Source: Agathobacter sp. (lineage in GTDB: Bacteria > Bacillota > Clostridia > Lachnospirales > Lachnospiraceae). Taken from it: a stretch of DNA of 64,000 bases. The notes below the pieces were generated by a model. That model was not told the DNA's origin and did no database searches. It saw only the letters and a program-made list of their open reading frames with translations. The stretch lies in the NCBI GenBank assembly GCA_022772675.1, contig JALEZW010000071.1:1-64000 (forward strand), read 5' to 3'. The translations under genes and the position numbers were made by a program. Shown piece by piece: positions 7,196 to 64,000 of this stretch (position 1 is the first letter of the stretch; each line of letters begins with the position of its first letter).

Positions 7196-10100
7196 TCAAT
7201 CCATTTCTCTGGAACTGCAGTCTTCTATATCACCGTCCTCCGCAGGATAAAGCTTTTCCACATCTATCGTCCCGTCACTTATAAGTTCCAGCAGGATATC
7301 CACAAGCTTTGGATCAAACTGGGTTCCTCTTCCTTTTTTCAGTTCTTCCAGTACATGTCCCATATCCAGTTTCTTTCGGTATACACGGTTAGCCGTCATG
7401 GCATCAAAGGCATCTGCGATTCCTATAATTCTCGCATTTAACGGAATTTCTTCTCCCTTTAAGCCATTCACATAACCTCTTCCGTCATACCTCTCATGGT
7501 GATAAAGTGCCCCATCTGCCACATGGTCGATGAGGGTGAAATTCCTTAGGATTTCCGCGCCGATTTTTACATGGCACTTCATAATATCGTATTCCTCATC
7601 CGTAAGCTTTCCCGGCTTATTTAACACCCGGTCCGGAATACCAATCTTGCCAATATCATGGAGCATGGCAATCTTACGAAGCTCCTCACATTGTTCCTCG
7701 CTGTATCCCAGCTTCTCCGCAATCAGAACCGAGTAATCCGAAACCCTGAGGGAATGTTTACTGGTATTTTCATCCTTGGCATCCACAGCCTGTGCAATGG
7801 TAAGAATGGACTCATTTCCCATCTGCAGCTGCTTTTTGGTCCACTCCAGCTCCATTTTCTGCATGCGGAGAGTCTTTTGCATCTGCGTCCGGAAGAAAAA
7901 CCACGTCAGAAATGCAATCACTGCTGCCGCAACAAGCCCGGCATAGAGCCGGAACCACCAGTTATCATAGATTCCCTTTTCCTTTACAATTCTGTAAGTA
8001 TTTTCCACTATCATCCCGTCCGTCCGGCTGTCAAGAACAGCAAAATGAAGGGTATATTCCCCGGAAGGCATATTCGTGTATACAAGGGTTGACATTTTAC
8101 TCTGGGGCATGATCTTTGCGCTCTGGTCCACCCCTTCCAGATAAATCCGAATTTCGGGATCATTCACGGAATAATTTACGATTTCAGGGTTTATTTCAAT
8201 CTCCGCTGCCTCTCTCCCAATCCGGATAGGTTCCCCTTTTTCCACAGGCATAGACTTCCCGTCCACAATAATCTCCTGCAGCAGCATACGGTAGGAACGC
8301 TCCGTAATATCATACTGATTCAGGTTAAAACAGACTGCACCTCTGTCTCCGGACAAATACAGGTTATCCTTCTCATCCAGATAATTCCATGAATTTGGCG
8401 TAAGCCCCATACGAAGTCCTTTCCCGGAATCCAAAAGCTCATACCTTACATTTTCTCCCTGTAAAAGGGCAGCTTTATCCACAATATAAATTCCGGCTGA
8501 CCCCAGTACGAAAAGCTTTCCACCGGGGCCCTCCACAACATCAAAATTGTTATAGTAAGGAAATTGATTCAAAAACCGAATTTTCCCGTTTTTCTCCATA
8601 TAACAAAGTCCATTTCCGGTTACGATAAAATATCCCTTTCCGGAGGATTCCGGCACGATTCTTAAAATGATATCCGAACTTAACCCCTCCTCCTGCCGAA
8701 GGGTCTTTACAACCCTGCCATCCTCAATTACGGCAATTCCGTTTCCGTCTGTTCCCGCAAAAAACCTGCCATCTTTATCCTCACACATGGATAATACTTT
8801 CGGATTGGTCAGCCCCTCCGTGTAACCGATGGTATCCACCACTTTTCCGTCTTTTATAAAGGTGAGACCCGAATCCCCGGCGATAACTACTGTTTTATCT
8901 TTAAGTTCAATGGCGGAACGGAATTTTTCACCCAGAGCCCCCTCTGCACTGCTGTATGTTTTAATCTTTCCCTTCTCTGACACCCGCCAGATTCCGCTGT
9001 CCGAAGTACAGATCCATAAAGCATCCTCCGAATCTGTAAGAAAGCAGCGGATTCTAACTCCTGCAAGCTTCTTAGAAAGAGCTTCCGATTTCTTTTTTCC
9101 TGTTTCCGCATCTAAAACATCCAGTCCGCTGTCTGTCCCGAAATACAGGCATCCTTTCCATTCTGTCACAGCATTTACCACCTGCTCTGACAGATTTGCC
9201 CGCCCGTAAAGCTCCGTAAAAACAGACGGACAGAGCCGGAGGAGTCCCAGTCTTGAGGATGTAAACCATAAATTTCCCTGATAATCCACCAGCATCCTTT
9301 CAATGGAACTGTTGTATTTTCCGCAGTCAAGTATCCTAAAGTCCTTTTCCCTATTGAAATATCCAATTCCGTTTTCCGCACAGATAAATATATTTTCTTC
9401 CTCTACAAAATTAATGGAATTAATCCCCACAAGATTTCCACAGGATACTTCGTCTGTCTTGTGTAACTGCTGCTCTGATACCTCATATATTTCTATCTGT
9501 CCCGAAGTGGTACCCACATATAATCTGCCCTCCTCATCAAAGGCGCAGCAGTTATAAGCGGCTCCTTCCGTTTTCAGTGTCCTGTGTCCTGTCACCTTTG
9601 TGCCGTGAATCAGGTACAGTTCCCCCTCATTGGTGACCACTGCGGCATTTGCATCTGCATCGGTACAGACACAATCCGCATAAACAATCTCGTGAAGGGT
9701 CTCGCACACCTGCAGCCCCCGGGAAAGTGACATGACGACCATGCTGTCCGTAGTTCCCACATAATAGTCCCCCTCCGAGCTTTCCGCAATACAGCGGACA
9801 GAATTCGAGGGAAGTCCGTTCTGCCTGTCCACTACATTGGAAATTTTCTGGTCAATACAGATGGACAATCCATTGTCATTGGTTCCAATCCAGAGTCTGC
9901 CGGCCTCATCTGTGTATAAACAATTCACGGACTTAACAGAATCATATGTATTCATCCACTGAAAGGTATTTCCGGTATAGCGGTACAGACCTCCATAATT
10001 TCCAATCCATAGAACCCCATCCTTTGTCTGGGCTATGGTATTTGCCTCCCCGCTAGGCAGACCATTATCCCCGTTATAGATGGTCTGCACGTAGTTCCTT

Positions 10101-52453: not shown

Positions 52454-53701
52454 TTACTGGTAAATCGGATATTTATCACAGATTTTTGCAACTTCCCCAC
52501 GAACATACTCTAACTGGTTCTCATAATCCGTGGCAATGAGATAAATCAGTTCTGCGATTTTTTCCATATCCTCCTCAACCAGGCCTCTTGAGGTAACCGC
52601 CGGGGTTCCAATTCTGACACCGGATGTAACGAAAGGACTTCTCGGGTCATTGGGTACCGTATTTTTATTTAAGGTAATACGCGCGCTATCACAGCGGTTC
52701 TGCAGCTCTTTGCCGCTGATATCCAGATTCCGTAAATCCACTAACATCAGATGGTTGTCCGTTCCACCTGTTAAGATATCAAATCCCTGTTTGATTAAAG
52801 CCTGGGATAATGCCCTGGCATTCTTAATCACCTGCTTTTGATATTCCTTAAATTCCGGCTTCAATGCCTCTCCGAGACAGACTGCCTTTCCGGCAATTAC
52901 ATGCATCAGCGGACCACCCTGGATTCCCGGGAAAATCGCTTTGTTGAAATTAAATTTCTCTGCAGCTTCTTTATTTGCAAGAATCATTCCGCCTCTCGGT
53001 CCTCTTAAAGTCTTATGTGTGGTGGTAGTCACAACATCTGCATATGGGATCGGACTTGGGTGAAGTCCTGCAGCCACAAGACCTGCAATATGGGCCATAT
53101 CCACCATCAGATAAGCCCCTACTTCATCTGCCACCTCCCGGAATTTCTTAAAATCAATGGTTCTGGCATAGGCACTGGCACCTGCAATAATCAACTTCGG
53201 CTTTGCTTCTAAGGCAATCCTTCTCATCTCATCATAATCAATGAATCCCTCGCTGTTAACACCATATGGTACAACGTTGAACCATTTTCCTGACATATTG
53301 ACCGGACTTCCATGGGTCAGATGTCCGCCGTGGTCTAAGTTCATTCCCATGATGGTATCCCCCGGCTCTAACATGGCAAAGAATACTGCCATATTTGCCT
53401 GAGCCCCGGAATGGGGCTGTACATTTGCATAATCACAGTGAAAAAGTTCTTTTGCGCGTTCAATGGCGATGTTTTCTACAATATCCACATCCTCGCAGCC
53501 GCCATAATATCTTTTTCCCGGATATCCTTCTGCATATTTGTTTGTCAGCACGGTTCCCATTGCTAACATAGAAGCCTCGGAAACGATATTCTCTGATGCA
53601 ATCAGCTCTAAGTTATTGCTCTGTCTCTCAAACTCCAGCCCGATTGCCTCCCCGACTTCTTTATCATTTTCTGTTAAAAGCTCCATGATATCTTTAACCA
53701 T
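52454..53701 (-). CDS. glyA: Serine hydroxymethyltransferase
   Basis: PLP enzyme converting serine and tetrahydrofolate to glycine and methylene-tetrahydrofolate. The 415 residues contain [11 protein letters not shown], the [15 protein letters not shown] segment, [22 protein letters not shown] and the PLP lysine in [21 protein letters not shown] precedes the ATG. It follows lpdA by 34 bases and is the last gene of the glycine cleavage cluster, so the whole glycine-serine-C1 interchange is encoded together behind one riboswitch. Confidence 0.97.
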
Positions 53702-53735
53702 TTGTCTTTCCTCCTTCTTTCTACGGTTCTCAGGC

Positions 53736-55100
53736 TTACGCGTTTACCGCCTCCGTAATTCCCTCGCTAAAGGTGGGATGGGGACGAATCACGGAACCCA
53801 TCTCCTCTAAGGTCATGCCGGCTGTTATGGCAGTTCCGAACTCACTGATCATATCGGTGGCTCTTGCACACATCATCTGCGCCCCGAGAATCTTTCCTGT
53901 TTCGGCTTCTGCAACTACTTTGATAAATCCTCTCTCCTGATTAGACAGAACCGATTTTCCATTTGCGGACATGGCATACTTATGGGTGGTAACTGTCATT
54001 CCATCCGCTTCTGCCTCTTCCCTGGAAAGTCCTACCGTTGCAATTTCCGGATTCGTATAAACACATCCCGGAATTGCCTGCATATTAATAGGAAATTTCT
54101 CATTGACCATATGTGCCACCGCATTGATTCCCTCTGCTGAAGCCACATGCGCTAACTGGATTCCACCTGTCACATCTCCAATGGCATAGATATTAGGAAT
54201 ATTCGTCTGATAATTCTTATTTACCAGTATTCTGCCCCGGTCTGTGGCAATTTCAATCCCTTCACCAAACAGACCTTCTGTATTGGCACGTCTTCCTACA
54301 GCCACAAGAATTCCATCTGCTTCCACTTCATGAAGAGTATCTTTTTCCGTATAACGGCAGAGCAGAGCTTTGTCCGCTCCTTCTGCAATTTCTTCTACCT
54401 TTGCTTTGGTATGAATCTCCACATTCCGCTTCTTTAAAATCATCTTCAGATTCTGGGCAATTTCCTTATCCATATTGGCAAGGATACGGTCCAGTGCCTC
54501 AATGACGGTCACCTGACACCCCAGTGAACTGTAAATAGACGCAAACTCCATTCCGATTACTCCGCCTCCGATAATGACCAGATGCGGATAGACTTCTTTC
54601 CTATTTAAAAGGGTGTCACTGTTTACTACATCCGGAAGATCTGCTCCCGGTATTGGAGGCATCGCAGGCACAGATCCTGTGGCAATCAATATCTTATCTG
54701 TAGACAACAGGGTCTGTTCTTCTCCCTGTACCGTCACTTCATTCGTGGAGGTGATACAGCCGGTGCCGGAATAAACCGCTATTTTATTCTTTTTCATCAG
54801 CATGGCAATTCCATCTCTGAGCTGTTTGATAACCTCGTCTTTTCTCTCCTGGATTTCTTCCATATTATAGGAAGCAGCATCTACATGGATGCCAAGCTGC
54901 TCACAGGCTTTTATCTCTGCAAACAGATCTGTGGAATGCATAATCGTTTTTGTCGGAATACAGCCACGATTTAAACAGGTTCCTCCCAGCTCACGTTTTT
55001 CCACCAGAGCGGTCTTCATTCCCTTTTTTGCACTTTCTATTGCTGCAATATATCCGCCGGGTCCGGCACCTATGACAACTAAATCAAAGCTATCTGCCAT
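53736..55100 (-). CDS. lpdA: Dihydrolipoyl dehydrogenase (L-protein)
   Basis: Flavoenzyme that reoxidises dihydrolipoyl-GcvH with NAD. The 454 residues have the FAD motif [17 protein letters not shown], redox cysteines in [13 protein letters not shown], an NAD motif [33 protein letters not shown] and the C-terminal catalytic [12 protein letters not shown]. No extra lipoyl domain is attached. ATG 55100 is eight bases after GGGAGGG; a GTG one codon earlier is possible. Placed between gcvPB and glyA, so dedicated to glycine cleavage. Confidence 0.97.
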
Positions 55101-55120
55101 CACTTACGCCCTCCCTTTTC

Positions 55121-56545
55121 CTAAAATTCATAACGAAGTACCGGTTTTCTTGCTGCCTGCACCTCATCCGGTCTTCGGATATAGGTCGTAACCGGAGCCT
55201 CATGCAATGCCTCAGGATTGGCTTTGGCTTTCTCGTAAATCTCACGGAATACAGCGATGACTTCGTCTAACGTTTCCCTGCTCTCGGTTTCTGTCGGCTC
55301 CACCATCAATGCCTCATGTACAATTAACGGGAAATACATGGTAGGCGGATGAATTCCGTAATCCAGAAGTGCTTTTGCAATATCCATGGCAGAAACCCCG
55401 ATTTCATGTTCCAATTTTTCTAAGGTCATGACAAACTCATGCATACAGGTCTCGTCATATGCCATCGGATAGATATCCTTTAATTTTTCCATCATGTAGT
55501 TGGCATTTAAAACTGCATTTTTGGATGCTGCCGGAATTCCCTCTTTTCCTAACATAAGTACATAGGTCAGCGCCTTTACCACCACAAGGAAATTTCCATA
55601 AAAAGTTCGTACACTGCCAATGGATTTTTCCGGAACCTTAAATGACAATTCTTCGGTTCCGGCTACCTGTCTGCCCGGCAGAAATTCCTGTAGAAAGGAT
55701 TTGCAGCCCACCGGGCCGCTGCCCGGGCCACCACATCCGTGAGGTGTGGAAAATGTCTTGTGCAGATTAATGTGAACCACATCAAATCCCATATCTCCCG
55801 GTCTTACCACACCCATGACTGCATTTAAATTTGCCCCGTCATAATAGGCAAGACCTCCTGCCTCATGGATAATGGATGTAATCTCCAGAATATTCTTATC
55901 AAACAGACCTACTGTGTTGGGATTGGTTAACATGAGTCCTGCAGTATCTTCCCCTGCCACCTCCCGCAGCTTATCAAGATCCACACAGCCATCCTCCCTG
56001 GAGGGAACGCTGACTACCGTAAATCCTGCCATGGCAGCACTGGCCGGATTCGTTCCATGGGCGGAATCCGGAACAATAATCTTGGTTCGTTTTTTGTCAT
56101 TTCTACTGTCGTGATAGGCCTTGATCAAAAGAAGACCTGTAAATTCTCCATGGGCACCGGCTGCCGGCTGAAATGTCATGGCATCCATACCTGTAATCTC
56201 ACATAACAGCTTCTCAGAAGTCTTAAGTACTTCCATGCAGCCCTGGACAGTATGCTCCGGCTGCAGTGGATGTATCCTTGTAAAGCCCTTTTGTGCTGCT
56301 GCCTCTTCATTTACTTTCGGATTATATTTCATGGTGCAGGAGCCCAGTGGATAAAATCCGTTATTGACACCATGTACCTCTTTTGCCAGTTCTGTATAAT
56401 GTCTGCTTAACTCATTCTCGGAAAGCTGTGGCAGATGAAGTGGTTTTTCTCTCTTTGGAGTGGAAATTTCCACCTGCGGTACATCACATTCCGGAAGTAT
56501 GGAGCACTGATTTCCTTTATTTCCTTTTTCAAATATTAATTTCAT
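55121..56545 (-). CDS. gcvPB: Glycine dehydrogenase (decarboxylating) subunit 2
   Basis: PLP-carrying subunit of the two-subunit P-protein, 474 residues. PLP lysine lies in DVVHINLHKTFSTPHGCGG, with the glycine-rich GSGPVG following; LGSCTMKYNPKVNE and QPAAGAHGEFTG are typical. The ATG at 56545 overlaps the gcvPA stop as ATGA, so the subunits are translationally coupled. The longer frame to 56617 lies within gcvPA. Confidence 0.97.
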   Translation of the reverse strand: MKLIFEKGNKGNQCSILPECDVPQVEISTPKREKPLHLPQLSENELSRHYTELAKEVHGVNNGFYPLGSCTMKYNPKVNEEAAAQKGFTRIHPLQPEHTVQGCMEVLKTSEKLLCEITGMDAMTFQPAAGAHGEFTGLLLIKAYHDSRNDKKRTKIIVPDSAHGTNPASAAMAGFTVVSVPSREDGCVDLDKLREVAGEDTAGLMLTNPNTVGLFDKNILEITSIIHEAGGLAYYDGANLNAVMGVVRPGDMGFDVVHINLHKTFSTPHGCGGPGSGPVGCKSFLQEFLPGRQVAGTEELSFKVPEKSIGSVRTFYGNFLVVVKALTYVLMLGKEGIPAASKNAVLNANYMMEKLKDIYPMAYDETCMHEFVMTLEKLEHEIGVSAMDIAKALLDYGIHPPTMYFPLIVHEALMVEPTETESRETLDEVIAVFREIYEKAKANPEALHEAPVTTYIRRPDEVQAARKPVLRYEF

Positions 56546-57858
56546 CCCTGACACACCTCCTTCACAATGGAAGCCACCTGATCCATCTCTTCTTTTGTGT
56601 TCTTTTCTGTTGCACACCAGAGAATCTCATATTCATTCAAAGGCAGTCCGCCTAAAATTCCCTTCTGTTCCAGTGCCTCTAAAATAACATCTGCTTTTAC
56701 ATCAGAAGTTGTGACAAATTCATGGAAATATGGCTGGTCATATTTGGGCTTTAAACCGGCTTTCTTTAATTCCCCCTGCAGATAATGGGCTTTGGATAAG
56801 CAAAGATTTGCAGCCTGCTTCATGCCTGCTTCCCCCATTGCTGCCATGTAAACACTGGCAGTCAGAGCGCAAAGTGCCTCATTGGAACAGATATTGCTGC
56901 TGGCTTTTTCTCTCCGGATATGCTGTTCCCTGGCCTGAAGAGTCAGTACGTAAGCACGTTTTCCTTCTTTATCTACGGTCTCTCCTACAATTCTGCCCGG
57001 AAGTTTCCGCATCATTTTCTCGGTAGATGCCATAAATCCAAGGTATGGTCCGCCAAAGGAAAGCTCCATGCCAAGGGGCTGGCCTTCTCCTACTGCAACA
57101 TCTGCTCCACATTCCGCAGGTGTTTTTAAAACCGCAAGTGCAATGGGATTGCAGCCCATAATATACTTAGCACCGGCTTCATGGGTAATCTCACCCAGAA
57201 CATCTGCGTCCTCGATATTGCCGTAATAATTGGGCTGCTGCATATAAAAGCATGCGCTGTCCTCTTTTAAAGCTGCCTTTAACGCCTCCTGATCGGTAAC
57301 CCCATCCTTTTCCGGAATCACCTCCACCTGAATGCCGTTTCCATAGCAATAGGTTTTGATCACAGTAAGGACCTGTGGATTTACAGTTTCCGATACAAAT
57401 GCCACATTTCTTTTTCTCTCCCTGCACATGGCAACTGCCTCTGCTGCCGCTGTCGCACCGTCATAGACAGAAGCGTTGGATACCGCCATACCGGTCAGTT
57501 CACAGATCATGGTCTGATATTCAAAGATAGACTGTAAAATACCCTGGCTGATTTCCGCCTGATAGGGTGTATAGGCTGTCAGAAATTCTTCTCTGTTTAC
57601 CACACTCCCTACAATTGCCGGAACATAATGGTTATATGCCCCCGCACCACGGAAGATGTGCTTAAAGATTTTATTCTTGTCTGCCAGCTCTTCCATCTTA
57701 TCCAATGCTTCCATCTCACTCAAACCGGATGGAAGATTTAATTCTTTTACCTTTACCTCCTGCGGAATATGGGAAAAAAGAGCATCAAAGCTGTCATAAC
57801 CGATTTCCGACAGCATTTCCTTTTGTACTTCCTCCGTATTACCAAGATAAGAGCCCAT
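56542..57858 (-). CDS. gcvPA: Glycine dehydrogenase (decarboxylating) subunit 1
   Basis: Partner subunit of the P-protein, 438 residues, decarboxylating glycine and passing aminomethyl to lipoyl-GcvH. The MGSYLGNTEEVQKEML opening, FRGAGAYNHYVPAIV, YTPYQAEISQGILQ and NASVYDGATAAAEA segments match GcvPA. ATG 57858 is eight bases after AAGGAGG; a GTG three codons earlier overlaps that site and is unlikely. It is 30 bases after gcvH. Confidence 0.97.
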   Translation of the reverse strand: MGSYLGNTEEVQKEMLSEIGYDSFDALFSHIPQEVKVKELNLPSGLSEMEALDKMEELADKNKIFKHIFRGAGAYNHYVPAIVGSVVNREEFLTAYTPYQAEISQGILQSIFEYQTMICELTGMAVSNASVYDGATAAAEAVAMCRERKRNVAFVSETVNPQVLTVIKTYCYGNGIQVEVIPEKDGVTDQEALKAALKEDSACFYMQQPNYYGNIEDADVLGEITHEAGAKYIMGCNPIALAVLKTPAECGADVAVGEGQPLGMELSFGGPYLGFMASTEKMMRKLPGRIVGETVDKEGKRAYVLTLQAREQHIRREKASSNICSNEALCALTASVYMAAMGEAGMKQAANLCLSKAHYLQGELKKAGLKPKYDQPYFHEFVTTSDVKADVILEALEQKGILGGLPLNEYEILWCATEKNTKEEMDQVASIVKEVCQG

Positions 57859-57888
57859 ATGTTTCACCTCCTTGTTGGATCATTTCCT

Positions 57889-58272
57889 CTACTCTTCTTC
57901 ACTCTCGGTAAATTTCTCATAAGTTTCCGCGTCCATCAGATCCTCTGTCTCAGTAATATTCTCTACCTTGATAAACCAGGAATCATATGGATTTTCATTA
58001 ATCTGTTCCGGAGCATCCAAAAGTTCTTCATTCACCTCTGCAACCACGCCGGACACCGGTGAGAAAATATCAGAAACTGCCTTAACGGACTCTACATCTG
58101 CAAATTCCTTTCCTGCAGTTACTTCATCCCCCTCCTCCGGAAGATTGACAAATACGATTCCTCCCAGAGAGTTCTGTGCGAAATCGCTGATTCCGATCAG
58201 TGCTGTGCTCTCATCTAAAAACTTTACCCATTCATGTGACTTTCTGTACTTTAATTCTGTTGGATATTTCAT
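57889..58272 (-). CDS. gcvH: Glycine cleavage system H protein
   Basis: Lipoyl carrier that shuttles the aminomethyl group between P, T and L proteins. At 127 residues it is full length; the lipoylated Lys64 lies in ADVESVKAVSDIF, and KYRKSHEWVK and GISDFAQNSLG are typical of GcvH. The C-terminus is acidic. It needs lipoate attached by the LplA/LipA enzymes encoded divergently a few kilobases away. Confidence 0.97.
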   Translation of the reverse strand: MKYPTELKYRKSHEWVKFLDESTALIGISDFAQNSLGGIVFVNLPEEGDEVTAGKEFADVESVKAVSDIFSPVSGVVAEVNEELLDAPEQINENPYDSWFIKVENITETEDLMDAETYEKFTESEEE

Positions 58273-58384
58273 AATCTTTTTCCTCTTTTCTTTCTATTTT
58301 TTATTTTAATTGTTTCTGTTTCTACCTATATTAAATATTAAAGTGTGAAGGTATCATTTCTATTTCTGCCACCCAACCTGTATC

Positions 58385-59479
58385 TTACTGTGGCTGTCCC
58401 TTCTTATAAAATGGCAGCGGTACAATCTCAGCCTCAATCCTTCTGCCTCTTACATCTGCCTCGACTTTTGTTCCAATCTCTGTGTGGTCAATATCCAAAA
58501 GAGCCATAGCAATGGGATAGCCAAGATATGGACAATGGGTTCCGGATGTGGTATGACCGATTTCTTTCCCATCACAATAAACAGTTTCATGTTCTCTGAT
58601 AATGCCCCTGCCGGTTACCTTTAATCCCACACGCTTTCTTGTGAGAGGTCCCTTTGCTTCAATGGCATCTTTTCCGATAAACTCCTCCTTGTTCATCTTC
58701 ACGAATATCCCAAGGCCTGCTTCCAATGGAGTAACCGTGTCATCCATCTCATGTCCATATAATGGCATGGCCGCTTCCAGCCTTAAGGTATCTCTGGCCC
58801 CCAGTCCGCAGGGAAACAGTCCTTCCTCTTTTCCTGCCTCTAAAAGAAGCTCCCACATCTTTGGTGCCTCCTCTGCTGCCAGATACAATTCAAATCCATT
58901 TTCTCCGGTGTATCCGGTTTTGGAAATAATACATTCCATATCATCAATCTTACGTCGGAAGGTTGCACTGTAATATTTCACCGGAATGTCCTCTTCCTTT
59001 GCAACCTTTTTTAACACTTCCAGTGCCTTAGGTCCCTGTAACGCAATCTGTGCCACCTGATCGGAAATGTCCTTAATCTCCACATCTCCAAACACATGAT
59101 TTTTGATCCATTCGTAATCTTTGTCCTTATTTGCGGCATTTACTACAATCAGATAATGTTCTTCCCGTACCTTATAGACAATCAGATCGTCTACCACGCC
59201 GCCTTCCTCGTTACACATGGGGCTGTAACGGGCCTGTCCGTCATACATGGTTGTATAGTCGTTGGTCAGCAGATGATTTAAATTCTTTACCGCATCCTTT
59301 CCGATGCAGGTAATTTCTCCCATATGGGATACATCGAACAGGCCGCAGGCTGTACGGACTGCCATATGTTCCTTAATCACTCCCGTTTCATACTGTACCG
59401 GAAGCAGATATCCTGCAAACGGCACAATCTTCCCTTTGTACTTGACATGTGTTTCATAAAGTGGTGTTTTCAGTTCCAT
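58385..59479 (-). CDS. gcvT: Glycine cleavage system aminomethyltransferase (T protein)
   Basis: Transfers the methylene group from aminomethyl-lipoyl-GcvH to tetrahydrofolate and releases ammonia. The 364 residues match GcvT: TPLYETHVKYKGKIVPFAGY, FDVSHMGEI, GYTGENGFELYL, GARDTLRLEAAMPLYGHEM and a C-terminal HTTSGTHCPYLG. ATG 59479 is eight bases after AAAGGAG; the frame extends to 59566 but the added residues are not family-like. First gene of gcvT-gcvH-gcvPA-gcvPB-lpdA-glyA, directly after the glycine riboswitch. Confidence 0.97.
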   Translation of the reverse strand: MELKTPLYETHVKYKGKIVPFAGYLLPVQYETGVIKEHMAVRTACGLFDVSHMGEITCIGKDAVKNLNHLLTNDYTTMYDGQARYSPMCNEEGGVVDDLIVYKVREEHYLIVVNAANKDKDYEWIKNHVFGDVEIKDISDQVAQIALQGPKALEVLKKVAKEEDIPVKYYSATFRRKIDDMECIISKTGYTGENGFELYLAAEEAPKMWELLLEAGKEEGLFPCGLGARDTLRLEAAMPLYGHEMDDTVTPLEAGLGIFVKMNKEEFIGKDAIEAKGPLTRKRVGLKVTGRGIIREHETVYCDGKEIGHTTSGTHCPYLGYPIAMALLDIDHTEIGTKVEADVRGRRIEAEIVPLPFYKKGQPQ

Positions 59480-59553
59480 CGCTTGTTCTCCTTTCTTTTT
59501 TTGTTTCTGTTTTTGACTCAATCCATAGTCTCTGCCATAACATTCCGTGCAAT

Positions 59554-59600
59554 AAAAAGAGCGCATAAATAAACACAGTATCTGCTTATTTATGCGCTCT
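59554..59600 (-). terminator. Glycine riboswitch expression-platform terminator
   Basis: Perfect 15-base-pair stem (59558-59572 with 59586-59600) and T5 on the minus strand. Its 5' arm shares bases with the last conserved strand of aptamer 2 (GGACAGAGC), so glycine binding should pull that strand away and allow readthrough into gcvT, as in Bacillus. Confidence 0.92.
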
Positions 59601-59785
59601 GTCCTGAAACCTGAAATATTGTTCTTCCCAACCTGCCGATTCCACAGGGCATGGAAAGTTTGATTCTTTGGTGCCCCTTTGCTCTCCAGAGTGTCGTCAA
59701 AATATGGTCCTTCTGCCTGAGAGTTTCTTGCTTTTCCCCTTCGGCGTTACAACAGCCCATGTAATCTCTCCCATATTTTTCAGTC
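59594..59785 (-). ncRNA. Tandem glycine riboswitch
   Basis: On the minus strand aptamer 1 (about 59785-59699) shows GGGAGAG, GCCGAAGGGG, ACTCTCAGGCAGAAGGAC and a P1 helix of AAAATATGG with its complement. The CTGGAGAGC block then begins aptamer 2 (to about 59594), with CACCAAAG, AAAC and TTTCAGG followed by CAGGACAGAGC. The CACCAAAG form of aptamer 2 is the same as that of the Bacillus subtilis gcvT riboswitch, so it is not degenerate. Glycine should turn on the cleavage operon. A terminator and gcvT follow. Confidence 0.95.
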
Positions 59786-59880: not shown

Positions 59881-59909
59881 TTGACAAAACAAACTGCCAA
59901 TGCTATTAT
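59881..59909 (+). promoter_or_regulatory. Promoter of the membrane pair-lplA-lipA operon
   Basis: Consensus TTGACA (59881-59886), 17 bases, TATTAT (59904-59909), preceded by TGC as an extended -10. It is divergent from the gcv promoter, with the two -35 boxes only 24 bases apart. Transcription starts near 59916. Confidence 0.8.
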
Positions 59910-59922
59910 GCCAACAGGCAAA

Positions 59923-59958
59923 GGCGCTCCCCGTTCAAGGAGCGTCTTTTTTATTTTT
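59923..59958 (+). terminator. Intrinsic terminator in the operon leader (possible attenuator)
   Basis: GC-rich eight-base-pair stem (59923-59930 with 59939-59946, one G-U) followed by T6, A, T6. It lies within about ten bases of the predicted start of its own promoter, and no plus-strand gene lies upstream for it to end, so it probably attenuates this operon or makes a very short RNA. Confidence 0.75.
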
Positions 59959-59991
59959 TGGGCTGAGCAAACAAAAGAAGGAGGTACATTA

Positions 59992-60012
59992 ATGGAAACG
60001 AAAACTGCATAG
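59992..60012 (+). CDS. Six-codon mini-ORF in the operon leader
   Basis: ATG at 59992 follows a strong AGGAGG (59979-59984) by seven bases and encodes Met-Glu-Thr-Lys-Thr-Ala then TAG. It ends 54 bases before the DUF5058 gene. It may be a translated leader peptide or the remnant of a deleted gene. No codon run points to a particular amino acid, so ordinary amino-acid attenuation is unlikely. Confidence 0.4.
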   Translation: METKTA

Positions 60013-60066
60013 TAATTTTACTGTTATATCATGAAACAAAAAACAAAGAGAGAGAGGTAAAATCTT

Positions 60067-60786
60067 ATGACTACAATGAAAGACATTATTTCAAGTCCTT
60101 TACTGCTTATTCTGGTGGCAATCGGACTCATCTACATTGTGATATTTTCACTGATTCATTTAAAAAAATCCTATTCCCGATGTATCGAAATGGGAATTAC
60201 AAAAGAGGATCTTAAAAAAGTAATCAAATCCAGCATCGTATTTTCCATCGTCCCCAGCTTATCTATCGTTGTTGGATTATTTGCACTGATTTCCGTTCTG
60301 GGGGTTGTATGGTCCTGGTGGCGGCTTTCTGTAATCGGTTCCCTTTCCTATGAATCTTTAATTTCCAGCAGTGTTGCATCCGCTCTTAAATTTTCATCAG
60401 CTGCCGAAATGTTAGAGAAGGCAACCGGAAGCCAGTTCGGTGTTGTTATGATCTTAATGAGCATCGGTATGTTAAGTGGTTTCTTCATTTTAATCCCTCT
60501 GGGCAAAAAATTATCCATGAGTGTCAGCAAATCTGAAAACTCCAGCAGCTGGAAATATGTATTAAGCGGCACCTTCATGCTCTGCCTGTTTGCCGTTTAC
60601 ATTCCGGTTCTTCTAATCGGTGATACCGTCCAGGCAGCTGTTATGATCACCGGTCTTGTCATTGCCGTTGCCCTTGGCATACTGGCCTCCAAACCAAAGC
60701 TCCGGTGGTTAAGTGAATTTATTATGGCATTTTCCATGATTGGCGGTATGATCTCCTCCGTCTTCTGGGCAAAATTATTTCTGTAA
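60067..60786 (+). CDS. DUF5058 family membrane protein
   Basis: Multi-pass membrane protein of 239 residues with about seven helices; family DUF5058, function unknown. A cytosolic charged loop (LKKSYSRCIEMGITKEDLKK) follows the first helix, then SIVFSIVPSLSIVVGLFAL, VWSWWRLSVIGSLSYE and PLGKKLSMS. GAGAGAGG precedes the ATG. It is the first full gene of the operon with a membrane partner, lplA, a lipoyl protein and lipA, opposite the glycine cleavage operon. A transporter role for a small substrate such as glycine, serine or lipoate is inferred from context only. Confidence 0.8.
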   Translation: MTTMKDIISSPLLLILVAIGLIYIVIFSLIHLKKSYSRCIEMGITKEDLKKVIKSSIVFSIVPSLSIVVGLFALISVLGVVWSWWRLSVIGSLSYESLISSSVASALKFSSAAEMLEKATGSQFGVVMILMSIGMLSGFFILIPLGKKLSMSVSKSENSSSWKYVLSGTFMLCLFAVYIPVLLIGDTVQAAVMITGLVIAVALGILASKPKLRWLSEFIMAFSMIGGMISSVFWAKLFL

Positions 60787-60819
60787 ATTCTAAAACGTTT
60801 TCGAAAGGAGAATGTAATT

Positions 60820-61590
60820 ATGAGTAAAAAAAATAAACAGACAATCGTCATGGATCCCTTTCAGGCATGGTGTCACAAATGGAGCCGGATCGGTACTGTA
60901 ATTATGTTAGCTTATATGGTGGCACTGCCATTTATCGTTTTAGCTTATTATCACTGTATTCCATCCTTCGGGGAGGTTATCAATCTGTCCACCATCAGTA
61001 TTCTGATGATTTATATTCCGGTAGGAATCTCCGAGGCCTTAAGCTATACTCCAATCCTTGGTTCTTCTACATACCTGACATTCTTAACCGGTAATATCAT
61101 GAACTTAAAACTCCCGGTTGCCGTAAATGCCATGAAGCTGGCAAAAAAGGAAGCCAACACACCGGAAGGCGAAGCAATTTCCTGCGTTGCCGTATCCGTA
61201 TCTTCCATTATGACTGTCATTATCCTGGCGCTGGCAGCCCTCTTAAGCAGCTGGATCAGCCCGGTATTTGAGCTGCCGGCAGTAAAGACAGCCTCCAACT
61301 ACCTGATTCCTGCCCTGTTCGGTTCTCTTACATTAGGACTGTTCTCAAGCACAAAAGCCGGCAAAAAGGTCGTAAAAAATGGTATTGCCGGTGTTATTCC
61401 GGTACTGATCATCGTAGCCCTGCTGGCACTTTTCGTCCGTATTACAAGTGGCGGCTCCTTATTTGGAATGATTGGATTCTTAATTCTTTTCATGCTTCCG
61501 GTAGCCATCATTTCTTCCCGTATTATGTGGAAAAAGGGAATTATCAAAGTTGTTGACAATGAAGAAACTACATCGGAAGAAAAACAGTAA
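60820..61590 (+). CDS. Uncharacterised multi-pass membrane protein, DUF5058 partner
   Basis: Membrane protein of 256 residues with about seven helices and a charged cytosolic tail (VVDNEETTSEEKQ). I do not recognise the family with confidence. Conserved-looking polar spots inside helices are IYIPVGISEALSYTP and LGSSTYLTFLTGN, of the kind that could bind substrate. Thirty-three bases separate it from the DUF5058 gene and the two share size and topology, so they probably form a two-subunit carrier or a membrane complex. AAAGGAG lies before the ATG. Confidence 0.75.
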   Translation: MSKKNKQTIVMDPFQAWCHKWSRIGTVIMLAYMVALPFIVLAYYHCIPSFGEVINLSTISILMIYIPVGISEALSYTPILGSSTYLTFLTGNIMNLKLPVAVNAMKLAKKEANTPEGEAISCVAVSVSSIMTVIILALAALLSSWISPVFELPAVKTASNYLIPALFGSLTLGLFSSTKAGKKVVKNGIAGVIPVLIIVALLALFVRITSGGSLFGMIGFLILFMLPVAIISSRIMWKKGIIKVVDNEETTSEEKQ

Positions 61591-61617: not shown

Positions 61618-62538
61618 ATGAAATATATTGAGTTAGACAGCCATGACATTTTTCAAAACCTTGCTGCAGAAGAATATATTTTGCATCACTTTACCGACGA
61701 TACATACCTTCTGCTGTACCGGAATGACGATGCCATTGTATTGGGCAAATACCAGAATATTTATCAGGAAATCAATGTTCCTGCTGTGGAAACCGCCGGT
61801 ATCAGAATCGCAAGACGTATTACCGGCGGGGGAACAGTTTTTCATGATAATGGGAATCTGAATTATTCCTTTATTGCAGAAAATGATAAAAACCGTTCTG
61901 TAAGCTATGATGATTTCCTTTTTCCTGTCATCGATGCCCTGCGGGCTATGGGAATCGAGGCAGAAAAACGAAACGTCTGTGACATTGCTATCGGAGATTA
62001 TAAAATTTCCGGCAATGCCCAGTGCGTTTGCGGAAACCGGGTTTTGCACCACGGAACACTGCTGTTTGATACCGATATGAAAAAACTCCATCACCTGTTA
62101 ACTCCCACAGATGCAGTCCTGGAATCAAAGGCTGTTGCCTCTGTTCCTTCTCCTGTGACAAATATCAGAGAGCATTTAGCGGATTCCTCTATGACAATGG
62201 AAGAGTTTCAATCCGCACTGCTCTCCCATATCTTTCCCTCCGGCATTACACGCCGGGAGCTGACCGGAGAAGACAAAAAACAAATTCTTCAACTGGCGGA
62301 GGAAAAATATTGTACCTGGGAGTGGAACTGTGGAAAACCCCCCCGTTTTACTCTGCACCGGGACAATATGAATCTATCGGTGGAACATGGAATCATTACA
62401 TACTGCCACATTCCTTTCCTGTCTCCGGAAGCTTCTAAGGCACTGTCCGGCCAGCGTTATGGATATCAGAATCTTCTGCATGTCCTGTCTTCATTTTATG
62501 GAAAAGATACAGAATCGATGGTAAAAAAATTATTTTAA
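61618..62538 (+). CDS. lplA: Lipoate-protein ligase
   Basis: Activates lipoate with ATP and attaches it to lysines of GcvH or other lipoyl domains. The 306 residues have LLLYRNDDAIVLGKYQN, the lipoate-binding ARRITGGGTVFHDNGNLNYS loop and the catalytic lysine in GDYKISGNAQ. A C-terminal accessory domain (about 215-306) is present. GGAGG precedes the ATG by seven bases. Fourth gene of the operon if the mini-ORF counts, 27 bases after the membrane partner. Confidence 0.93.
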   Translation: MKYIELDSHDIFQNLAAEEYILHHFTDDTYLLLYRNDDAIVLGKYQNIYQEINVPAVETAGIRIARRITGGGTVFHDNGNLNYSFIAENDKNRSVSYDDFLFPVIDALRAMGIEAEKRNVCDIAIGDYKISGNAQCVCGNRVLHHGTLLFDTDMKKLHHLLTPTDAVLESKAVASVPSPVTNIREHLADSSMTMEEFQSALLSHIFPSGITRRELTGEDKKQILQLAEEKYCTWEWNCGKPPRFTLHRDNMNLSVEHGIITYCHIPFLSPEASKALSGQRYGYQNLLHVLSSFYGKDTESMVKKLF

Positions 62539-62554
62539 GAAAGGATCCCACATT

Positions 62555-62797
62555 ATGGATAAGGTTATCACTATGCCAAAGCTGTCAGCCGATATGAAAA
62601 AAGGTGTTTTGGCAGCCTGGGCTAAGCAAAAGGGCGACAGGGTTAAAAAGGGAGATGTTCTCTATGAAGTCGAGTCTGCCAAGGTTGTCAGCGAAGTCGA
62701 ATCTACCGTAGACGGCATCCTGACAGAAGTGTATGTTGAAGAAGGCGATGAAGTAGATGCAGGCGCACCTGTTGCTGTCATCTGCTCCCCTCAGTAA
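62555..62797 (+). CDS. Free-standing lipoyl-domain protein
   Basis: Protein of 80 residues consisting only of an E2-type lipoyl/biotinyl domain. The modified lysine is Lys43 in VESAKVVSEVES, where dehydrogenase E2 domains usually have ETDKA. Opening ITMPKLSADMKKGVLAAW and end EGDEVDAGAPVAVICSPQ are typical of such domains. It has no catalytic or subunit-binding region, so it is a carrier only. Its place between lplA and lipA suggests that it is a lipoyl acceptor in its own right. It could be a relay or store of lipoyl groups, or serve an enzyme encoded elsewhere. Confidence 0.85.
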   Translation: MDKVITMPKLSADMKKGVLAAWAKQKGDRVKKGDVLYEVESAKVVSEVESTVDGILTEVYVEEGDEVDAGAPVAVICSPQ

Positions 62798-62809: not shown

Positions 62810-63670
62810 ATGCAGGAACGAATGCCGGAATGGTTTAAAGTAAAGTACAATGAGGAAGCTGTAAAAGAGGTCAGTGAGCTCATGTCAAAATTAAAACTAA
62901 ATACTGTCTGCAAGGAGGCAAACTGCCCGAATCTGGGGGAATGTTTCCAGAAGCATACTGCAACCTTTATGATTCTAGGCAGCCAGTGCACCAGAAACTG
63001 CCGTTTTTGTAATGTTGTCCATGGAACTCCGGAGCCCGTGGATGAGAATGAGCCTATGCACGTTGCAGAAGCCGTAAGAGATTTAAAGCTTCGCCATGTA
63101 GTCATCACCCAGGTTACCCGGGATGATCTGCCGGACGGCGGTGCCGATCAGTTTGCAAAAGTAGTCTCTGCAATCCGAAGCCTCTGCCCGGAAGTAACCA
63201 TTGAAGTCCTGATCAGTGATATGAAAGGGGACAAAAATTCATTGGATACGGTAATCAATGCCCATCCGGAAGTCATAAACCACAATATTGAAACTGTAGC
63301 ACCTCTTTATGCTAAGGTTCGTCCGGAAGCTGATTATGAGAGAAGTCTTTCCGTCCTTCGCTATGTAAAGGAAAAAGACAGCTCTATCCTTACCAAAACC
63401 GGCATCATGCTGGGGCTGGGTGAAACGAAAGAACAGGTTTTAAAAACCATGGATGATGTCCTTGCAACAGGCTGTGACATTTTCACCATCGGTCAGTATC
63501 TTCGTCCTTCCCCCGCCCATGTGGAAATGAAAGAATATATTTCCCCGGAAATTTTTGCAGAATACAAAGAAATCGGTCTTAAAAAAGGCTTCCGCTATGT
63601 TGCCAGCTCCCCGCTGGTACGCAGCTCTTACCGTGCTGCCGAAGCTTTACAGTCAGGAGTGAAAGAATGA
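62810..63670 (+). CDS. lipA: Lipoyl synthase
   Basis: Radical SAM enzyme that inserts two sulfurs into octanoyl groups bound to carrier proteins. The 286 residues have the auxiliary cluster motif CKEANCPNLGEC, the radical SAM cluster CTRNCRFC and the C-terminal SSPLVRSSYRA serine ligand. AAGGAG precedes the ATG. It lies 12 bases after the lipoyl protein, and the following ligase-like gene overlaps its stop as ATGA. Confidence 0.96.
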   Translation: MQERMPEWFKVKYNEEAVKEVSELMSKLKLNTVCKEANCPNLGECFQKHTATFMILGSQCTRNCRFCNVVHGTPEPVDENEPMHVAEAVRDLKLRHVVITQVTRDDLPDGGADQFAKVVSAIRSLCPEVTIEVLISDMKGDKNSLDTVINAHPEVINHNIETVAPLYAKVRPEADYERSLSVLRYVKEKDSSILTKTGIMLGLGETKEQVLKTMDDVLATGCDIFTIGQYLRPSPAHVEMKEYISPEIFAEYKEIGLKKGFRYVASSPLVRSSYRAAEALQSGVKE

Positions 63671-64000
63671 TTTATATCGAAACCGGTTCTACCGATCCTT
63701 ATTTTAATTTTGGTCTGGAATATTATCTAATCACGGAAAAGAAGTTTTCAGAGCCTGTCTTTTTATTCTGGCAGACGGCTCCTACCCTGATGGTGGGGAA
63801 ATTTCAAAACACCTTAGAGGAAATCAATGCCGTCTACGCCAAAGAACATCATATCAACATTGTCCGGCGCATGTCCGGTGGCGGTACCATTTACACGGAT
63901 ATGGGGGGCTGGCAGTTCACATTTATCATTCCCGGACAAACGGAGGAAATCAGTTTCAGCGAATATATCAGTCCTGTCATTGATGCCCTGCATGCTATGG
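63667..64000 (+). CDS. Second lipoate/octanoate ligase-like protein (partial, runs off the window)
   Basis: The ATG at 63667 overlaps the lipA stop; the frame is open for 111 codons to the window end. The product opens with MIYIETGSTDPYFNFGLEYY and carries APTLMVGKFQN and VRRMSGGGTIYTDMGGWQFT, so it belongs to the lipoate ligase/octanoyltransferase fold. It differs from the first LplA and from the usual GGGAVYHDxGNLN in having Thr where His is common and Gly-Trp in place of Asn-Leu. It may be an octanoyltransferase, an amidotransferase or a ligase with another substrate. The catalytic lysine is beyond the window. Confidence 0.88.
   Translation, partial: MIYIETGSTDPYFNFGLEYYLITEKKFSEPVFLFWQTAPTLMVGKFQNTLEEINAVYAKEHHINIVRRMSGGGTIYTDMGGWQFTFIIPGQTEEISFSEYISPVIDALHAM

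Follow-up and report, generated by a model that had tools for sequence, protein, structure and literature searches.

The window, which is the whole stretch of 64,000 nucleotides of Agathobacter sp. DNA analyzed here, harbors a tight operon on the forward strand that is led by the genes of two membrane proteins, A and B. Protein A (60067-60786) is a DUF5058 membrane protein (PF16481) with six predicted transmembrane (TM) helices and a predicted outside N-terminus. Protein B (60820-61590) represents an unnamed partner family and has six predicted TM helices and a predicted inside N-terminus. Downstream on the same strand follow the gene of a lipoate-protein ligase, lplA (61618-62538, recognized by Pfam and NCBIfam), that of a free-standing lipoyl domain of 80 aa (62555-62797, PF00364), the lipoyl synthase gene lipA (62810-63670, above the TIGR00510 cut-off), and a second lplA-like gene. 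The latter, named from its own sequence, occupies 63668-64000 and continues past the window end to about position 64653 of contig G000:C36; its counterparts in two related loci, L054 and L064, are matched by the first lplA at 33-35%. The lipoyl domain is of the E2 type, and its gene separates lplA from lipA in each of the three gcv-linked operons (at 10470-10709 in L054 and 10476-10718 in L064). The domain could act as a scaffold that is loaded with octanoate, carries it during sulphuration, and then hands it to GcvH.

The A-B operon is divergent from the genes gcvT, gcvH, gcvPA, gcvPB, lpd, and glyA (52454-59566, reverse strand), which were delimited as open reading frames (ORFs). gcvT and gcvH were identified by Pfam, and the remaining four are named on the basis of their sequence and of annotated haloarchaeal genes that they match. 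A single glycine riboswitch aptamer (59695-59783, reverse strand; RF00504, 62.6 bits) was found by Rfam ahead of the gcv operon. On the strand of the A-B operon, no riboswitch was found, as no Rfam match reached the gathering threshold in this region of the window. The ORFs and the Pfam, NCBIfam, and Rfam matches confirm the layout given in a preliminary description of this DNA, in which a membrane-protein pair heads a lipoyl operon divergent from a glycine-riboswitch gcv operon.

Position 59881, at which the feature had been said to begin, is not a coding start. It marks the start of the -35 box in a site that resembles a sigma-70 promoter, TTGACA-N17-TATTAT (59881-59909, forward strand), in which a 17-base spacer precedes TATTAT at 59904. 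A comparable promoter layout is present upstream in L051, L052, L053, L054, and L064. The leader contains a terminator-like hairpin followed by a T-run (59920-59949, forward strand), which travels with the cassette. Starting about 10 bases past the -10 box, the hairpin leader accompanies the cassette despite differing neighbors (window 59881-59949, L051, L052, L053, L054, L064, L079, and L095). In an alignment of eight chosen hairpin sequences, five of the 13 pairs have at least one change on both sides, and several cells are broken. The promoter-plus-leader pattern occurs once in its own genome, and the backward-pattern control gave zero matches. No room for an aptamer was seen in the stretch before the hairpin.

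Protein A matches PF16481 with 146.9 bits against a gathering cut-off of 28.2 and is thus a member of the family. At E ≤ 1, protein B is matched by neither Pfam nor NCBIfam, and it lies outside PF16481, so that the earlier designation "DUF5058 pair" holds for A and has to be withdrawn for B. No homology between A and B is detectable (BLASTP E 0.03 over 48 residues; profile-profile probability 0.5%), and neither protein matched a PDB sequence at E ≤ 10. The two ORFs are real beyond chance, because homologues exist in an archaeon. Five stretches of viral contigs fitted a pattern, and none of them encodes relatives of the pair. We found no paper naming DUF5058, PF16481, or IPR032479 (the number that we take to be that of DUF5058), which is weak evidence of absence, as many subscription papers were outside reach. 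AlphaFold single-chain models of A and B have low confidence (pLDDT 53.6 and 56.7), and we draw no evidence from the helices in them.

Proteins A and B form a constant pair

The comparison covers 90 distinct loci, all from the phylum of the window, which are L051-L143 and the window (94 with A) after removal of four duplicates. Weak or partial A matches that fell short of the cut-off or were not extended (L020, L021, G212, and G251) lie outside this set. The gene of B directly follows that of A, on the same strand, in all 90 loci. Protein A exceeds the Pfam cut-off in 31 of 398 sampled genomes of the phylum, with two weaker matches in G212 and G251. A profile of diverse B proteins has strong matches in the same 31 genomes, 13 of which supplied a row to the profile and match by construction, and 18 of which did not. 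The sole additional strong B match, in G314, ends at the contig end, and a match in G138 is marginal (19.9 bits). In L117 (G118), the DUF5058 gene contains an in-frame stop.

The pair is also present in a plasmid collection, in which 12 records contain A. Ten of these were looked at (the remaining two are from Paracoccus pantotrophus), and B adjoins A in all ten, five haloarchaeal genera among them. L153 and L154 have a fragmentary B. In L155, a Vibrio diabolicus plasmid, the DUF5058 gene of A (8962-9690) is split, with B adjoining and transposase genes nearby. A and B constitute a constant pair. The two-protein membrane unit of the preliminary description stands as an uncharacterized pair, and its proposed role as a carrier is plausible.

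Amide hydrolases are recurring neighbors of the pair

A hydrolase of the M20 family is encoded within 1.5 kb of the pair, on the same strand, in 67 of the 90 loci. Five more loci have an adjoining amidohydrolase or peptidase outside the M20 set according to Pfam: C45 in L116, M42 in L141, Amidohydro_1 in L139, Amidohydro_3 in L135, and a divergent M20 followed by Amidohydro_3 in L140. The recurring neighbor of the pair is therefore an amide hydrolase. It is present in 37 of the 42 more distant loci, and an M20 gene is present in 35 of the 48 closer ones, window included. Two M20 profiles were built from the neighbor genes themselves, and the M20-containing loci have no further match above 60 bits to either profile elsewhere in their stretches. 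No amide hydrolase was found beside the pair in 18 of the 90 loci, among them the window, and in two of the ten plasmid records (L153 and L155). The neighbors were tested with Pfam in ten of the 23 loci that lack an M20 gene within 1.5 kb; these are the five named above and L052, L079, L091, L106, and L143, where the neighbors are not hydrolases. Four distant loci (L120, L121, L124, and L132) encode PucR-type regulators close to the cassette; these form one sequence cluster, of which the L120 member was tested with Pfam.

The M20 proteins are of two types. None of the 40 proteins of the first type has an N-terminal TM segment. An anchor is present in 17 of the 19 proteins of the second type; lysines and arginines are more numerous after the anchor than before it in 15 of them, with ties in two. 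Since the M20 proteins either lack an N-terminal TM segment or have an anchor that is mostly followed by more positive charge than precedes it, hydrolysis is probably intracellular, which favors import by the pair. The constancy of the pair while the type of hydrolase changes is more in keeping with an amide carrier than with a protein dedicated to a single enzyme.

Predicted topology of A and B

The topology of the pair was analyzed in 94 sequences of each protein, from 88 loci and six plasmid records (L147-L152). L095, which is partial, and L117, with the stop in A, are absent from this set and from the tree of A and B described below. Averaged hydropathy indicates six TM centers each in A and B and, in both, a long conserved loop that joins helix 2 to helix 3. 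Counts of lysines and arginines in the loops place the N-terminus of A outside in 94 of 94 sequences and that of B inside in 94 of 94, the same with or without the long loop after helix 2, although these sequences are homologous and not independent. With the window sequences alone, the loop-charge orientation has permutation P values of only 0.03 and 0.045. The hydropathy profiles of A and B are similar at r 0.52, a value reached by three of 29 control membrane proteins against A (mean r 0.44, maximum 0.54) and by four of 29 against B. The comparison of hydropathy shapes is thus not discriminating. Because A and B lack detectable homology and their hydropathy similarity is within that of the controls, the charge bias is the single line of evidence for an inverted pair. 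Residues R86 and E96 of A are invariant (94 of 94 sequences), and E72 of B is kept in 91 of 94. These three residues might serve carboxylate and cation binding.

Linkage to glycine cleavage and lipoyl genes

Genes of glycine cleavage (gcv) and lipoyl metabolism (lip) are located near the pair in three of the 90 loci, the window, L054, and L064, which form one clade in the tree. In all three, lplA, the lipoyl domain, lipA, and the second lplA follow B at short gaps. When the whole of L051-L143 was queried, gcv together with lip genes was found only in L054 and L064 (the latter from Roseburia hominis An869), and glyA in L069. Apart from the window, there are 89 loci, of which 48 have flanks of at least 5 kb on both sides and 28 on one side only, and because of the short flanks in many loci some linkage may go unseen. 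Among the close relatives, L052 and L061 have no gcv linkage on either side, and L051 has none upstream and L053 none downstream, their other sides being beyond the contig.

The gcv and lip queries derived from the window recognize haloarchaeal genes as well. On haloarchaeal plasmids, gcv genes lie beside the trio of A, B, and hydrolase in five of six records, in several gene orders. They are divergent in L149 and run in one direction in L150 and L151; L147 and L156 are near-identical (A 98.8% identical), and L148 has none. lipA is present in three of the six records, always together with gcv genes. A gene of the TRIC cation channel family, a domain that is presumably named a glycine transporter by Pfam, is located near DUF5058 in four of the six (L147, L148, L149, and L156). 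Genes resembling RidA and/or threonine ammonia-lyase occur near the cassette in the clostridial locus L124 (11011-11747) and in the haloarchaeal records L147 (2046-2423), L150 (5005-5382), and L151 (1483-2715).

The linkage to gcv in two domains of life, with lipoyl genes only alongside gcv, supports glycine and does not support lipoate alone. Of the two links considered in the preliminary description, that to lipoate fails in the neighborhood survey, in which the pairs occur mostly in other contexts and, with flanks that are often short, gcv or lip genes were found near the pair in only the one clade. The link to glycine does not hold as a general context and survives in a changed form, as gcv genes beside the haloarchaeal trio. 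A glycine-containing amide is a live possibility for the substrate.

The M20 gene is absent from the window

In L054 and L064, a promoter and hairpin similar to those of the window lead into the gene of an M20 protein of 408-411 aa, which is followed by A, B, and the lipoyl genes. The window lacks the M20 gene at this syntenic site and has only a six-codon ORF there (59992-60012, forward strand), with GGAGG at 59980 as its ribosome-binding site. The ORF is possibly a remnant of the M20 gene; gapped alignment gave no sign of such a derivation. The genome of the window has only one M20 homologue, which is 47% identical and located on another contig (completeness is given as 90.87%). In a tree of A and B, the M20-less loci L051-L053 and L061 cluster with the window, beside L054. 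This grouping tentatively suggests a single loss of M20, rather than a gain by the relatives.

Proposed function of the pair

We propose, giving the idea about an even chance, that A and B are subunits of one secondary carrier that imports amino-acid amides for the hydrolase of the cassette and has no detectable relation to AbgT. A, with its N-terminus outside, and B, with its N-terminus inside, would insert in opposite orientations with six helices each. The carrier would import N-acyl or aroyl amino acids, or dipeptides, and the amide hydrolase encoded in the cassette, cytosolic or tethered to the membrane, would cleave them. In the clade of the window, the M20 gene of the cassette would have been lost, and the cassette promoter would now read into lipoylation genes that adjoin the gcv operon. 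In the gcv-linked lineages, the amino acid released may be glycine. More tentatively, we speculate that the pair represents an undescribed carrier family of Clostridia, Actinomycetota, Pseudomonadota, and haloarchaea, in which two oppositely inserted, sequence-unrelated subunits supply varied amide hydrolases. In two lineages, the family might have been built into glycine-cleavage islands, feeding them N-acylglycine or glycyl peptides.

The pair might instead import a glycine-yielding compound for glycine cleavage, such as an N-acylglycine (e.g., hippurate), a glycyl dipeptide, or free glycine, serine, or threonine. This reading, which is a special case of the amide carrier where hydrolase and gcv genes both occur, draws on the adjacency of gcv genes to the cassette in two domains (the window, L054, and L064, and five of six haloarchaeal records in several orders). 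We consider it rather unlikely, as only three of 90 loci of the phylum, from one clade, have gcv nearby, close relatives lack the linkage (L052 and L061 on either side, and L051 and L053 on the upstream and the downstream side, respectively), two of the haloarchaeal records (L147 and L156) are near-identical, and the hydrolase sequences tested contain no pointer to glycine. A carrier of lipoate or octanoate would agree with the lipoyl genes close behind B in the three linked loci. However, the remaining 87 of the 90 loci, many with short flanks, gave no lipoyl gene in the vicinity of the pair, and haloarchaeal lipA occurs each time with gcv. This role is very improbable, and it was set aside as a general one.

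The salvage of folate catabolites is another alternative, in which the pair would import p-aminobenzoyl-glutamate for AbgA- or AbgB-like hydrolases and would be tied to gcv and glyA via tetrahydrofolate. All six haloarchaeal records encode AbgA-like hydrolases (37-39% over 416-427 aa), and that of L147 has the aminobenzoyl-glutamate utilization protein 3io1 as its closest PDB relative (306 bits). The hydrolases of the clostridial loci L109, L119, L120, L121, and L132 are AbgB-like (41-48%), and E. coli PGH is reported to be specific for PABA-GLU (PMC5082436), which counts for this reading. It is nevertheless improbable, since the nearest PDB relatives of the L054 M20 protein are YxeP and ILL2 rather than an aminobenzoyl-glutamate protein, the other first-type partners compared (non-AbgB) are only 26-36% identical to AbgA, hydrolases of the M42, C45, and Amidohydro types also occur beside the pair, and AbgA-like and AbgB-like genes were found together in no locus compared. 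With similarly low probability, the pair may export a hydrolysis product or a toxic analogue of an amino acid, or it may have no role in transport and serve as a membrane unit that anchors the hydrolase or senses for it. The sequence gives no direction of transport, and the pair can persist where the hydrolase gene is absent, both of which would suit such a role. The unrelated hydrolase folds beside the same pair, however, fit a shared supply of substrate better than a physical anchor.

Comparison with known systems

The reading of A and B as an amide carrier gives DUF5058 a concrete, testable role. It also brings out B as a second family, which is unrecognized by Pfam and NCBIfam even though it lies beside DUF5058 in every full-length case examined. 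The arrangement resembles that of AbgT and AbgA/AbgB, which take up and hydrolyze p-aminobenzoyl-glutamate in E. coli, in that a membrane carrier is encoded beside M20 amidohydrolases. The hydrolase beside A and B is itself AbgA-like in the six haloarchaeal records and AbgB-like in five clostridial loci, though not in the window. AbgT consists of a single chain of 508 aa, whereas A and B are separate proteins, each about 240-256 aa long. A comparison with one AbgT sequence gave a BLAST E of 0.58 for B, none reported for A, and an HH probability of 0.1% each, so that neither method found a relationship of A or B to AbgT. If the proposal is true, the pair would replace AbgT in function in gut bacteria and in archaea of salt lakes.

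YjiG/YjiH and IadA of E. coli are likewise two membrane proteins beside an amide hydrolase, which acts on isoaspartyl dipeptides. Comparison of A and B with YjiG, YjiH, and Gate-type profiles, from small and mixed reference sets, found no similarity, and there was no Pfam Gate match. Opposite loop-charge bias served as a sequence argument for antiparallel Fluc pairs (PMC3755343). A and B share with the inverted pairs of the Fluc and SMR type the adjacent genes and the opposite positive-inside bias, which is uniform in the 94 sequences of each protein. The Fluc twins are homologous (about 25%) channels with four TM helices, whereas A and B have six predicted TM helices each and are not detectably homologous. 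If the proposal is true, A and B would form a rare two-gene carrier with oppositely facing subunits.
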